A DNA stretch of 35,960 nt from Syntrophorhabdales bacterium (lineage in GTDB: Bacteria; Desulfobacterota; Syntrophorhabdia; Syntrophorhabdales; WCHB1-27). The stretch lies in assembly GCA_035541455.1 (NCBI GenBank), contig DATKNH010000101.1, forward strand, positions 1-35,960. The letters run 5' to 3'. The notes under the pieces were generated by a model. It was not told the origin of the DNA. It searched no databases and saw nothing but the letters and a program-made list of their open reading frames with translations. Shown in pieces: positions 12,648 through 32,190 of the stretch (within the stretch, counting starts at the first letter, position 1; every line of letters begins with the position of its first letter). Both the position numbers and the translations under genes were made by a program.

Positions 12648-12763
12648 GTGTATAGTGACGAGTGGATAGTGAAGAACCACAGAACGGTACGTGAGCCACC
12701 GTGCCGCTGCCCGCCCTAAACTACCCGCTGCTCACAATACACCAATCACTATTCACTAATCAC
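12648..12763. repeat. Inverted pair of degenerate heptamer arrays (GTGAATA type), site B
   Basis: Four phased 7-bp units beginning GTG (for example GTGTATA, GTGACGA) run from 12648, directly after the FKBP stop codon, to 12675. Six phased units of the complementary type, mostly ending CAC (TAATCAC, TATTCAC), run from 12722 to 12763, ending 17 bases before the next gene. The word differs from site A, but the period and the inverted layout are the same. The 46 bases between the arms are GC-rich with no other feature. Confidence 0.78.
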
Positions 12764-12780
12764 TGCAAGGTATAGGGACC

Positions 12781-21572: not shown

Positions 21573-23285
21573 ATGGTGAATGAAGCGAATCGACTGAATA
21601 GACGGGAACAATCGAAGCAACAGAAGAAACAAGGCGCACGTTCGCTCCGGACGCACTTTTTTCTCCTGATTGCTACGATCCTACCCCTCTTTGCGCTTGG
21701 TCTTTCAAACCACGGACTCTGGACTGCCGACGAACCGCGCGTCGCTGAAATCAGCAGGGAGATGGCTCTATCGGGAGACTGGGCGGTTCCCACCCTCAAT
21801 AAGAAGCCTTTTCTGGAAGAGCCTCCTCTCTACTACGCCTCAGTTGCCTCTGTGTTTAGGGTGTTCGGAGCCGCCTCCGACAGAATAGCGCGCATCCCGT
21901 CAGCCCTCTTTGCCCTGGGAGGAGTTGCCGCTCTTTTCTTTCTGGCCTCGATGCTTTTCGGCCCGAGGGTTGGATTTCTGTCGGGGTTTGTTCTTGCGAC
22001 ATGCGGCGAATATTTCCGGGTGGCGCACTGGCTTTTGGTGGACAGTGCGCTTACCTGTTTTGTGATCACCGCCATGGCCTTTTTTATGGCAGCATACCGG
22101 ACCAGCAACGGACGGAAGAGAATTCTTTTCTATGTGGCCTGCTACATCTCGTGCACGCTCGCCTTTTACTCGAAGGGGTTCATCGGCATTGCCATTCCGG
22201 GGCTTGCAGTGCTTGCCTTTATCATTCTTGACAGGAATTTCAGAGAAGCGCTCAGGATGCAGTTATGGCTCGGTGCGCTCGTATTCGTGCTCATGGCAGC
22301 ACCATGGTTTGCAGCGCTCTGGTACGGGGGCGGTTCGGAACACCTCAGGGTCTATCTCGTGTACAATCACCTCCAGCGATTTCTCCCCGGTGGCTCATCC
22401 GGCCATCATCAGCCGTTCTATTACTACCTCACCCAGTTCCCCGCAGGCTTTCTCCCCTGGAGCATTTTGCTCGTGTCGGTCATCTATTTCTGTGTTGCGA
22501 GAAGGCACAGAGCACCGACCTCACAGCAAAAAGGCCTCCTCTTCGCGGAATGCTGGTTTATTACCGGATTCCTCTTTTTCAGTCTCGCGTCAACCAAAAG
22601 GGTGCTCTATCTCATGCCGATCTTCGCTCCGGCTGCGATGCTGACAGCCTCGTATATCGAGACGACCCTGGGATCGCGGACTCTCAGCCGGATAGAAAGG
22701 GTCTTTCTCTGGATCTTTGGCTGCATTCTTCTCGTGATCGGACTGAGCTGCGTGCCGACCTACCTTTACGCGGCAAGGCTCTATGCCATAGGGACATCCT
22801 TGAAGCTGCTCTTTGCTGTAATCGTGGCAGCGGTTATCACGGTGCTGTTCTCTCTTTTTTCACTCTGCTATCTTGCCAGGCGCAGGACAGGTCACTTCTG
22901 GATCTATTCGAGCGCGGCGATATATACCTACTTGATAGTGGCGCTGGTCATCGCTGTACCGTTGCTGGACCGCTACAAGAGCTTGGTGCCCTTCTGCCAG
23001 CAGGTAAAGAGAGTAGTAGCGACGGATGCGATGCTTTACGCGTACCAACCGGACGAGACGCTGCGGGGAGCCTTGCCGTTCTACACGGGGTATCATCCGA
23101 AAGAGATGGAAGATCTGAAGGATCTCGAAAATCTAGCTTCAAGCAGGAGCCAGGTCTTTGTCGCGATCAGGGACAGCCATGGCCGATTGGAAAAGGAGCT
23201 GCTTTCCACGGGCAGGTTCACGGTCTTGAGCCGCTACGACATGGGGCCCGATCGTTCCCTGGTGCTGCTCGCCAACAAGAAATAG
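21573..23285 (+). CDS. Glycosyltransferase family 39 / ArnT-like integral membrane protein
   Basis: The 570-residue protein has about 11-12 membrane helices and the GT39/ArnT fold. Near the N-terminus LWTADEPRVAEISREMALSG carries the acidic Asp-Glu pair expected of the catalytic periplasmic loop, followed by NKKPFLEEPPLYY. Members transfer a sugar from a polyprenyl-phosphate donor to lipid A, other glycolipids or proteins on the outer face of the inner membrane; the acceptor cannot be told here. A C-terminal soluble domain (about 460-570) follows the helices. ATG 21573 has no clear Shine-Dalgarno. The last base of its TAG stop is the first base of a heptamer array. Confidence 0.88.
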   Translation: MVNEANRLNRREQSKQQKKQGARSLRTHFFLLIATILPLFALGLSNHGLWTADEPRVAEISREMALSGDWAVPTLNKKPFLEEPPLYYASVASVFRVFGAASDRIARIPSALFALGGVAALFFLASMLFGPRVGFLSGFVLATCGEYFRVAHWLLVDSALTCFVITAMAFFMAAYRTSNGRKRILFYVACYISCTLAFYSKGFIGIAIPGLAVLAFIILDRNFREALRMQLWLGALVFVLMAAPWFAALWYGGGSEHLRVYLVYNHLQRFLPGGSSGHHQPFYYYLTQFPAGFLPWSILLVSVIYFCVARRHRAPTSQQKGLLFAECWFITGFLFFSLASTKRVLYLMPIFAPAAMLTASYIETTLGSRTLSRIERVFLWIFGCILLVIGLSCVPTYLYAARLYAIGTSLKLLFAVIVAAVITVLFSLFSLCYLARRRTGHFWIYSSAAIYTYLIVALVIAVPLLDRYKSLVPFCQQVKRVVATDAMLYAYQPDETLRGALPFYTGYHPKEMEDLKDLENLASSRSQVFVAIRDSHGRLEKELLSTGRFTVLSRYDMGPDRSLVLLANKK

Positions 23286-23373
23286 CTAACGGCTAAAGGA
23301 TAACGGCTCGCGGATTCAAACCTTTATCCTTGGGCCTTTTGCCTTTAGCCGGTTTCCCTTTTAGCCGTTAGCC
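23285..23373. repeat. Heptamer arrays (GCTAACG type) spanning two convergent stop codons, site C
   Basis: Five phased units of GCTAACG type run from 23285 (the G of the upstream TAG stop) to 23319. A complementary array of units ending in CC (TTTATCC, TTTTGCC, TTTAGCC and so on) runs from about 23316 to 23373 with two one-base slips. It includes the TAA stop of htpG at 23368-23370. The arms pair to form a long hairpin between the two convergent genes, so it may double as a bidirectional terminator. Confidence 0.78.
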
Positions 23374-25284
23374 CTTTTGCTCGCCTTCGTCGGTTCCCTT
23401 CAGCATCAGCCGGGCAACTGTTCTGGCCAGCGCCACCGGATCCTTGGGCTTGGAACCTTCGAGCAGCAGGGCCTGATCATAAAGGAGGCCGATGTATTCA
23501 TCGAGAAGAGGGCTCTTCTTATCCTTTTCAAAGATACTGTTCATCATTTCGAGGAGCGGGTGGTCCGGATTTACCTCGAGAATCCTCTTCCCTCCGGGAA
23601 CCTCCTGCCCCATGGCCCTGAGTATCTTTTCCGTCTGCGGGTCAAGATCGCCCGTATCGGTCACCAGGCAGCATGGCGAATCCTTGAGCCTTCCGGAAAA
23701 ACGCACGTCTTTCACATCGTCCTTGAGTCTCTCTTTGATGACGTCCAGGAGCTTCGTGTATTTCTTTCTTGAAGTTGCTTTGTCTGTGGAATCGCTTTTC
23801 AGATCGATGTCGCCGCGGCTCACTGATTTCAAATGCTTGCCTTTGTATTCAAGGCCGCCCATCACCACATCATCGATCTCGTCCAGCATGATGAGCACTT
23901 CGTAATCTTTATCCCGGAAAGCTTCCAGATAGGGGCTCCTGAGCGCCTCGTCCAGAGAAGAGCCCGTAATATAATAGATCTCCTTCTGATCTTCCTTCAT
24001 GTTTTCCGCGTACTTCTGGAAGGTCGTATACGAGTCCTTCTCTGTCTTTGTCGATGGCAGAAGGAGAAGGTCGGCAATGGGCTCCCTCTTTGCGAAGTCA
24101 AAATAGACGCCCTCTTTCAGGATCCGCCCGAATTCCTTGTAAAACTTGAGATACGTTTCGTAGTCCTTCTCCTTCATCTCGGCCAGCGTGTCGAGCACCT
24201 TTTTTGTCACATTGGTCTTGATGATTTCCACCTGGCGGTTCTGCTGCAGCAGCTCTCGCGAAACATTGAGGGGCAGATCCGACGAGTCGATGACACCTTT
24301 GACGAACCTCAGGTAAACCGGGATAAGCGCCTCGCAGTTTTCCATAATCTGCACCCGGTTGACGTAGAGCATGGGCCCTATTTTGTAATCGCGGTACAGG
24401 ATATTGAAGGGCGCGTGTGAGGGTATGTAGAGGAGCGCGCTGAACTCTGATGTGCCTTCGGCCCTGTAGTGAATGACGGTGAGCGGGTCCCCGAAATCGT
24501 GAGAGACATGACGAAAGAACTCGTTGTACTCCTCCTTGGTGACTTCTGATTTATCCCGTAGCCACAGCGCCTTCCGGGAATTGAGCGTCTGCTCTTCCTT
24601 CACTTTCACCGTTTTGGTCTTGTCGATAGTGCTCGGTTTGTCCCGCTCGACTTCCATGACGATGGGATGCTCGATGAAGTCGGAATACCTGGAGACTACG
24701 TCCCTGATCTCCCATTCGTTGAGATAGGTCTTGTCTTCATCTCTCAAATAGAGCGTGACGTCGGTTCCCTTTGTCGCTTTATCTACATCTTCCACACTGA
24801 AAGAGCCTTCGCCTTTCGATTCCCATTTCACGCCCGGTGTACCTTTTTGCCCTGCGCGCCGCGATGTCACAACAATCCTGTCGGCTACCATGAAGGACGC
24901 GTAGAAGCCCACGCCAAACTGGCCTATGAGGTCAGGGTTGTCCTTGAGGTTCTTCTCCTTGAGCGCCTTGAGAAACTCTTTTGTGCCAGACCGGGCAATG
25001 GTGCCTAGTGCTTCGACAGCCTCTTTTTTTGTCATGCCTATGCCGTTGTCACTCACGGTGAGCGTGCCCGCGTCTTTATCGGCCGATATTCTGATTTTCC
25101 AGTCCCCGTCATCTTCCTGGACATCTTTGTTGGTAAGGGATTCGTAGCGCGCCCGGTCGATCGCATCCGACGCGTTGGAAATCAGCTCCCTCAAGAAAAC
25201 CTCTTTATGCGAATAGAGGGAGTGAATGACCAGGTTGAGTAGTTCTCTTGCTTCTGCCTTGAATTCCAGTGTCTGCGAACTCAT
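23368..25284 (-). CDS. htpG: Chaperone protein HtpG (bacterial Hsp90)
   Basis: The 638-residue ATP-dependent chaperone remodels client proteins in the cytoplasm as a dimer. The N-terminal GHKL ATPase domain shows LRELISNASDAIDRARYES, VSDNGIGMTKKE and GQFGVGFYASFMVADR. The middle domain contains VIDSSDLPLNVSREL with the catalytic-loop Arg, and the C-terminal dimerisation domain ends at DEGEQKG. Length is normal (624 in E. coli). ATG 25284 is preceded by GGAGGAA. The final codons and stop lie within a heptamer array, so the last few residues may have been replaced by repeat sequence. It is transcribed from a promoter at 25332-25360. Confidence 0.97.
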   Translation of the reverse strand: MSSQTLEFKAEARELLNLVIHSLYSHKEVFLRELISNASDAIDRARYESLTNKDVQEDDGDWKIRISADKDAGTLTVSDNGIGMTKKEAVEALGTIARSGTKEFLKALKEKNLKDNPDLIGQFGVGFYASFMVADRIVVTSRRAGQKGTPGVKWESKGEGSFSVEDVDKATKGTDVTLYLRDEDKTYLNEWEIRDVVSRYSDFIEHPIVMEVERDKPSTIDKTKTVKVKEEQTLNSRKALWLRDKSEVTKEEYNEFFRHVSHDFGDPLTVIHYRAEGTSEFSALLYIPSHAPFNILYRDYKIGPMLYVNRVQIMENCEALIPVYLRFVKGVIDSSDLPLNVSRELLQQNRQVEIIKTNVTKKVLDTLAEMKEKDYETYLKFYKEFGRILKEGVYFDFAKREPIADLLLLPSTKTEKDSYTTFQKYAENMKEDQKEIYYITGSSLDEALRSPYLEAFRDKDYEVLIMLDEIDDVVMGGLEYKGKHLKSVSRGDIDLKSDSTDKATSRKKYTKLLDVIKERLKDDVKDVRFSGRLKDSPCCLVTDTGDLDPQTEKILRAMGQEVPGGKRILEVNPDHPLLEMMNSIFEKDKKSPLLDEYIGLLYDQALLLEGSKPKDPVALARTVARLMLKGTDEGEQKG

Positions 25285-26248: not shown

Positions 26249-26265
26249 GAAGAGCAGGTCCGGGA

Positions 26266-26300
26266 GGGTCCAGGGGCATGGGTCATGGGTCCTGCGTAAT
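26266..26300. repeat. Heptamer array (GGGTCAT type), site E
   Basis: Five phased 7-bp units of GGGTCAT type (GGGTCCA, GGGGCAT and three more, the last one degenerate) occupy 26266-26300, beginning 17 bases after the crotonase stop. No inverted partner is evident in the following 120 bases. It has the same period as the other sites but a different word. Confidence 0.65.
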
Positions 26301-26424
26301 GCGACTGGCTCAACACAGCGTAGTGCTGGCTTGACTTCGAACCGGCAAACGTCTAATTTTTAGAGGAGTACCAGAAGCGCTAAAAAGCGACAAGAACAAT
26401 CAAACTGATCTGATGAGGCATGTT

Positions 26425-27452: not shown

Positions 27453-27458
27453 GAGAGT

Positions 27459-27493
27459 GTGACGAGTTACAAGTTACGAGTCACGAGTTACAA
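27459..27493. repeat. Heptamer array (GTTACGA type), site D
   Basis: Five perfectly phased units (GTGACGA, GTTACAA and three more of the same type) occupy 27459-27493, starting six bases after the nitroreductase stop and ending 16 bases before the end of the S1-repeat gene. The word is the same as at site A, 24.7 kb away. Unlike site A there is no inverted partner. Confidence 0.78.
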
Positions 27494-27509
27494 TTCAATT
27501 CAAATTCTG

Positions 27510-29229: not shown

Positions 29230-29841
29230 TCAAGTGGCTGCCGGTTGCTCTCTTTTGTTCTGGCAGATGAGATAGATCTCGGAGCTGACACCGCGGGAAG
29301 CAGACGGCTTGAACATCGATACGCGGCCGAAGATAGTTTCAAGTTCTCTGATAGTCGGCTTCAAGTCTTCGCTGAAGAACGATTTGATGATGAAGGTACC
29401 TCCTGGCCTAAGCCCTCTCTGAACCACTGCCAATACAGCGCCAAAGAGTTCGGCGATACGCGCGTTATCAACGTCACGGATACCGGAGAGGTTTGGTGCT
29501 ATGTCGCAGGTAATCACGTCGAAAGATGGGATGGAGAGACTCGCCAACAGTTCGGCGACATTCAGGGTTCTGATATCCGATTTTGCGGCCCTGAGATTCT
29601 TCTGCGGTAAAGGTGCGATGGGCAGCAGGTCGATTCCCTGGACAAAACCCTTCTCGCCTACCAGCCCCGAGATCACCTGCAGCCAGCTCCCAGGCGCGCA
29701 TCCCAGGTCAAGGACCTTGTCGCCCTGGCGCAGTGCACGATACTTCTGTTGTATCTCTTGGAGCTTGTACGCGCTTCTGGCCCTGAAGCCCTCCTGCTTG
29801 GCTTTCTTGTAGAATATATCTTTGACAACAAACCTGCCCAT
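29230..29841 (-). CDS. rlmE: 23S rRNA (uridine-2552-2'-O)-methyltransferase RlmE (FtsJ/RrmJ)
   Basis: RlmE methylates the ribose of U2552 in the A-loop of 23S rRNA and supports late 50S assembly. The 203-residue product has the complete K-D-K-E catalytic set: Lys in RSAYKLQEI, Asp in ITCDIAPNLSG, Lys in TFIIKSFF and Glu in SSEIYLICQN. The SAM motif is VLDLGCAPGSWLQV. Length matches the E. coli enzyme (209). It is divergent from the two-component pair; its start ATG 29841 lies 169 bases from that regulator's start. Confidence 0.95.
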   Translation of the reverse strand: MGRFVVKDIFYKKAKQEGFRARSAYKLQEIQQKYRALRQGDKVLDLGCAPGSWLQVISGLVGEKGFVQGIDLLPIAPLPQKNLRAAKSDIRTLNVAELLASLSIPSFDVITCDIAPNLSGIRDVDNARIAELFGAVLAVVQRGLRPGGTFIIKSFFSEDLKPTIRELETIFGRVSMFKPSASRGVSSEIYLICQNKREQPAAT

Positions 29842-32095: not shown

Positions 32096-32138
32096 GTAAT
32101 CTTCCCGTAATCTTCCCATCAGCTTCAACGGTTAAAAT
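32096..32138 (+). promoter_or_regulatory. Tandem 11-bp operator-like site and -10 element before degP
   Basis: GTAATCTTCCC is present twice head to tail without a gap (32096-32106 and 32107-32117). Direct repeats with an 11-bp step are the usual binding layout of OmpR/PhoB-family regulators. A -10-like TAAAAT lies at 32133-32138 and no good -35 is present, as expected for an activator-dependent promoter. The regulator at 30011-30685 is the obvious candidate to bind it. Confidence 0.6.
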
Positions 32139-32190
32139 GTTTTCAAGATAAGAGGCTGATCGCAGCCAACAACAAAAAAGGAGATTGGAG

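Follow-up and report, generated by a model that had tools for sequence, protein, structure and literature searches.

Rapidly changing inverted heptamer arrays behind stop codons, and a probable transcript-end hairpin between htpG and a glycosyltransferase gene in a Syntrophorhabdales bacterium

The window analysed here is a stretch of 35,960 nt that makes up the whole contig C101 (DATKNH010000101.1) of the 3.9-Mb draft genome of a Syntrophorhabdales bacterium (G000). In it, a glycosyltransferase gene on the forward strand (PMT_2, PF13231; 21573-23285, stop codon TAG at 23283-23285) converges on htpG on the reverse strand (HSP90, PF00183; 23368-25284), both assigned by Pfam, and a genuine heptamer array spans positions 23285-23378 between them. 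The left arm of the array (23285-23312, forward strand; delimited by sequence and by inverted-repeat detection) consists of the units GCTAACG, GCTAAAG, GATAACG and GCTCGCG. Its first unit overlaps the glycosyltransferase TAG by one base, the final G, as a reading of the sequence alone had stated, and the arm reads G.CTAACGG.CTAAAGG.ATAACGG.CTCGCGG. An 8-nt loop placed by the predicted fold, GATTCAAA, follows at 23313-23320, and its TTCAAACC stretch is also present in a dispersed copy of the element at G000:C13:59129-59200. The inner right arm (23321-23351, reverse strand) is complementary to the left arm and reads CCTTTATCC.TTGGGCC.TTTTGCC.TTTAGCCG, as delimited by sequence, inverted repeats and fold. 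The outer right arm, CCCTTTTAGCCGTTAGCCCTTTT (23356-23378, reverse strand), was recovered by the same three approaches and by TRF, and is complementary to the leftmost part of the left arm.

The end of htpG, CAA AAG GGC TAA (Gln-Lys-Gly-stop; 23368-23379, reverse strand), runs into this outer arm, which contains the stop codon TAA (23368-23370) and the last two to three codons. The earlier claim that the complementary array covers the TAA and the final codons of htpG is thereby borne out. Its extension to all four residues EQKG holds in part: the TRF array (23344-23378; period 16, 84% matches) takes in the Lys and Gly codons and part of the Gln codon, and the Glu codon lies outside. Inverted arms were detected independently at 23290-23315/23326-23351 (77%) and 23280-23297/23360-23377 (89%). 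A 12-nt unit pattern matches the window seven times against 1.8 expected, with five of the seven matches at the junction array, and the predicted RNA fold of the junction lies below shuffled sequences on the two strands (z of -3.30 and -4.79), giving a stable predicted hairpin shortly after the stop. The excess of the unit pattern and the fold scores argue that the array is not a product of chance. "Heptamer array" is a fair name for it, although the units are degenerate, with a period of 7 that is locally 8, and fall short of a clean tandem repeat.

Only CCTTTTGC follows the outer stem on one strand, and only TATTTCTTGTT on the other. No canonical intrinsic terminator was recognised there, nor a canonical U-tract, and a terminator scan of the junction returned a single weak inner match on the reverse strand that did not exceed shuffled sequences. 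Relatives of genus g15 carry CCTTTTA or TTTTTTA directly after the stems. A search of the junction element against Rfam gave no match above the gathering score and nothing near the threshold, and identity with an Rfam riboswitch or small RNA was dropped. Convergent intergenic regions in general fold well below shuffled sequences and divergent regions do not; convergent regions devoid of heptamers fold nearly as well as those that have them.

The junction is one of many such sites. Genome statistics were drawn from 405 kb of G000, comprising the window and six contigs picked because BLAST matched the array there, which introduces a mild bias; genes were delimited by a crude ORF caller whose starts are approximate and whose stops are exact. 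This sample contains 22 arrays of period 7, while no other period between 4 and 11 gives more than one, and first-order Markov sequences give no period-7 array. Periods 12, 18, 21 and 14 also score, the first three because coding sequence produces multiples of three and the last because it is twice seven. No period-7 array was seen in 100 kb of G059, from another family of the same phylum, and two members of a neighbouring family have fewer than G000. The array words of G000 include GGCTAAA, GTTACGG/ACGAGTT, GGGTCAC, AGTGACT, TTGGATA and CTCAAAA. Three further arrays in the window illustrate their variety: ACGAGTT, a word unlike that of the junction, at 27454-27499 between convergent ORFs, starting directly behind a stop codon; GGGTCAT at 26263-26304, between tandem genes; and ACATGTA/GTTACGG at 2754-2788, likewise between tandem genes. 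Another intergenic heptamer array, with the words TCACTAT/ACACCAA, was noticed at 12732-12764. The idea that array words are chosen so that both strands contain stop codons was dropped, as words such as TTGGATA and AAATTCC carry none. We also noticed three consecutive, apparently paralogous genes (L099:7526, 10500 and 11585; G000:C85) ending in FFKxxG(L/M)VK, each with an AGTGACT-type heptamer array directly behind it; these arrays were either duplicated along with the genes or arose separately.

A position just behind a stop codon recurs across the genome. An array lies within 60 nt after the stop at 38 of 328 sampled gene ends (about 12%), mostly starting 0-17 nt past the stop. The period-7 excess peaks in the 40 nt that follow stops (0.298 and 0.293, against about 0.25), and the 405-kb sample has none before stops or upstream of starts. 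The signal begins at the stop and not in coding DNA, and a general invasion of coding ends by arrays was rejected; apart from the cases described below, overlap of an array with coding sequence is an exception. Intergenic regions with an array number 9 of 30 between convergent genes, 22 of 101 between tandem genes and 3 of 28 between divergent genes, a divergent deficit that is weak by count (3/28 against 31/131). A hairpin so placed might act on translation, limiting read-on or re-initiation by the ribosome in the manner of the "ribosome termination structure" (PMC7518266). The start of the arrays so close behind the stops, tandem pairs included, would suit such a role, but at convergent junctions such as this one the transcript carries no further gene that would need protecting, and we regard it as very improbable.

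For 12 of 33 arrays, the same region yielded an inverted partner (p<0.05 each; 1.7 expected). A hairpin therefore cannot explain all arrays, since about two thirds have no detectable partner. This observation fits the main rival explanation, neutral drift, by which 7-nt slippage builds arrays just past stops, where neither coding nor promoter function constrains the DNA, and inverted arms are functionless by-products of template switching. In keeping with it, array words turn over fast, some sites gain or lose arrays between sister species, and passages of PMC4679880 and PMC4692102 that cite earlier work report heptamers as the commonest repeats of 5-11 nt in many bacterial genomes, linking them to polymerase slippage. 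The comparison with relatives bears on this explanation from the other side.

The related species G001, of the same genus, has the same convergent junction of htpG and the glycosyltransferase gene, the products being 87% and 77% identical, respectively. Its junction array, GGGTCAC GGGTCAT GGGTCAT ... GTGACCC TTGCCCC GTGACCC ATGACCC, is likewise inverted, with a longer centre, and folds with a z of -4.04, but its word GGGTCAC is unrelated to the GGCTAAC of G000. Behind a G001 paralogue of the glycosyltransferase gene stands a third unrelated word, GTCTATC/TAGTCAG, together with its complement. At 64 orthologous gene ends of the two genomes, arrays co-occur five times where 1.0 would be expected (period 7 scored at 14/21; Fisher p 3e-4), and the excess persists when the shared junction of the glycosyltransferase gene and htpG is counted once (hypergeometric p about 0.002). 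Co-occurrence at these 64 ends is not significantly raised for periods 5, 8, 9, 10 or 11; period 6 co-occurs twice against 0.12 expected, at one threshold only. Across the order, 12 of 28 htpG 3' flanks carry a period-7 array, and other periods occur in none or one. Genus g15 has one convergent htpG junction in five species, with HtpG ending in LMVENA(E/N).. and the partner protein in KFMEFFE; arrays of the GGTGATG, GGTTATG, GGTTATA and CAGAACC types are found there, and one species, G025, has no array and almost no intergenic DNA.

Words thus change quickly at conserved sites, and the two arms change together, because the htpG-end arms of eight species pair better with their own partners than with those of other species (permutation p 1.5e-4). 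Neutral drift predicts neither the recurrence of arrays at the same gene ends after a change of word nor the matching of arms within a species, unless old arrays seed new ones in place, and we consider it unlikely as an account of the junction. In the htpG 3' flanks of L032, L033, L034, L038 and L039, arrays often start after (A)GACAG and end at CTGTC(CTTTT); these boundaries may mark the ends of the element or the tail of a terminator. The GACAG...CTGTC motif, noticed by eye in the g15 relatives, is mild in G000 (13 against 6.2).

The two convergent genes probably differ in what the array has done to their ends. The glycosyltransferase ends in LLANKK with TAG in G000, in LLTNKP with TAG in the G001 orthologue and in LLTNR with TGA in the G001 paralogue, three stops whose positions agree within one codon, ahead of three different arrays. 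One of the two alternatives in the sequence-only reading was that the array supplied the gene ends with new stop codons. For the glycosyltransferase we reject the proposal: the orthologue has an identical TAG at the corresponding codon, the paralogue stops ahead of a third array, and a stop kept in two homologues before unrelated arrays was not created by the array. For htpG the same proposal survives in part. HtpG ends in LMLKGTDEGEQKG in G000, in LMLKGAE in G001 and in LMVDGLKKG in G002, of the same family, so that a tail TDEGEQKG in G000 stands against AE in its sister species. In similarity to the array, the final 30 nt of htpG come within the top two of 331 gene tails, and the glycosyltransferase tail is unremarkable. 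Because the tail differs from that of the sister species and resembles the array, the stop and last codons of htpG have probably been overprinted by array sequence, with roughly four to six residues added, judging from these sequences. The absence of conservation in the HtpG tail would explain why such overprinting is tolerated.

Two other genes have probable array-rewritten ends. One is at 29230-29841, where the G001 protein ends in QGKK and the stop TAG belongs to the first unit of TAGTGTC TAGTGTT; the other is at L103:11801, where the G001 protein ends in ..RQISG within GGATAGT GGATAGT. Among ortholog pairs, the C-terminus differs by at least four residues in none of nine where the array spares the stop, in four of seven where the stop scores as lying inside an array and in 12 of 50 with no array, small numbers that are only suggestive of a tie between C-terminal change and an array covering the stop. 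The earlier reading had named one finding that would speak against array-made ends, namely identical C-termini and stops in relatives lacking the array. The sister clade g15 provides such a case, as the C-terminal residues of the arrayless G025 are the same, within about two residues, as those of the four g15 species with an array.

The best relative of the junction element lies in the same genome, at G000:C13:59129-59200, behind another stop codon, and is 85% identical over 72 nt including the loop. Between aligned flanks and after the same stop codon, this site measures 84 nt of intergenic sequence in G000 and 9 nt in G001, a clean presence and absence of the dispersed copy, which shows that elements can appear or vanish cleanly behind a stop. 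A small mobile stem-loop of MITE- or REP-like kind, mobilised in trans and inserting behind stops, would leave such a copy and such an empty site. It should also leave several near-identical dispersed copies, which were not found: the C13 copy is the only clear second one in 3.9 Mb, and the remaining matches are partial and weak. No target-site duplication was seen by eye at the C13 site, and the other arrays have nothing in common beyond their period. One copy is not enough to warrant the label of transposable element, and we hold this origin to be improbable.

Taken with the fold predictions, the comparative evidence points, with moderate confidence, to the junction as one of a genome-wide set of fast-evolving degenerate-heptamer stem-loops behind stop codons, here probably serving as a bidirectional transcript-end hairpin. 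The inverted arms, transcribed from either side, would form a stable 3' hairpin, and at a convergent junction one element could close both transcripts by termination, by protection of the 3' end or by both, and would keep the two genes apart. The sequence-only reading had alternatively seen a hairpin terminator maintained by selection; the predicted fold on both strands, the joint replacement of the two arms and the position at the 3' end agree with it, and the want of a recognisable canonical U-tract does not. Words may change through 7-nt slippage combined with template switching between the arms, or through the copying in of another element. A broader proposition, which we advance only tentatively, is a process that conserves structure while replacing sequence, rewriting both arms at once as the post-stop place and the protein ends stay fixed, and sometimes overwriting the last codons of a neighbour.

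Comparable heptamer repeats have been described from Xanthomonas, Geobacter and Nostoc. The GGGAATC repeats of Xanthomonas and the GGGGA(C/T)T repeats of Nostoc are G-rich and quadruplex-forming, with one word per genome; they are intergenic, near or overlapping stops and rare between divergent genes, often form inverted pairs in Xanthomonas (70-75 pairs), and keep the same gene neighbours in sister species while varying in length and sequence (PMC4692102). The arrays of G000 are similarly intergenic, close to stops and less frequent between divergent genes, although this deficit is weak. They differ in having many unrelated words that are replaced at the same site, and the junction word, GGCTAAC/GGCTAAA, is a different one, with only two GGG runs on the reverse strand of the array. 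In Geobacter metallireducens, the passages of PMC2700814 on multicopy paired repeat sites describe several tandem classes of 7 or 8 nt (such as MTYCTGA x5 and GGGACCG x4), some with sites paired on opposite strands at variable distance; each class has a fixed consensus, and the sites are viewed as possible regulatory elements or binding sites for proteins. The junction shares the tandem repeats of 7 or 8 nt paired on opposite strands, but its words match none of GTTGCTYN, TCTCCGTS, MTYCTGA and GGGACCG, and those passages tie the sites neither to stop codons nor to a change of word at orthologous positions. The TAACTGA repeats of marine Beggiatoaceae are intergenic, mostly direct, of one fixed word, and mostly just upstream of starts, and they overlap stops (PMC4679880). 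The resemblance to G000 lies in intergenic heptamers and in a period of 7, which puts stops in all three frames; G000 departs from them in the word of the junction and in lacking any excess of period 7 ahead of start codons. The closest precedent for a change of word is the P6b stem of the Nostoc tRNA-Leu intron, in which complementary 7-nt repeats have switched word repeatedly, from Class II to Class I, as the stem persists (PMC4476775). P6b is a single site within an intron, whereas the arrays of G000 are dispersed at gene ends.

New here is the replacement of words, in both arms, at a conserved site; its combination with many words in one genome at fixed gene ends was not found described in the open-access literature searched. 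Reports of bacterial intergenic heptamers have so far been scattered, each dealing with a separate word, and none has settled their role. In this lineage, one genome has many words, and the same gene ends are refilled with different words in sister species with matching arms. Two questions become testable as a result: why the period is seven, and whether selection acts on the structure of a gene-end hairpin and leaves its sequence free to vary. The ends of htpG and, probably, of two other genes point besides to repeat growth rewriting the last residues of a protein.

Other repeats were noticed in the same comparisons. Intergenic spaces of G001 carry repeats such as GGTGACGAGTAAAA that are missing at the same place in G000 (L103:12711-12746 compared with L169). 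A dispersed repeat of about 120 nt at L105:10024-10143 (G000:C27), which has a GGAGGCGTAC...GTACGC hairpin, matches several places in G001 at 89-95% identity, a conservation far above that of the heptamer arrays. In the window, a perfect 11-nt direct repeat, GTAATCTTCCC in two copies at 32096-32117, lies upstream of an ORF at 32185 and is largely kept in G001 (GTAATCTTCGC).
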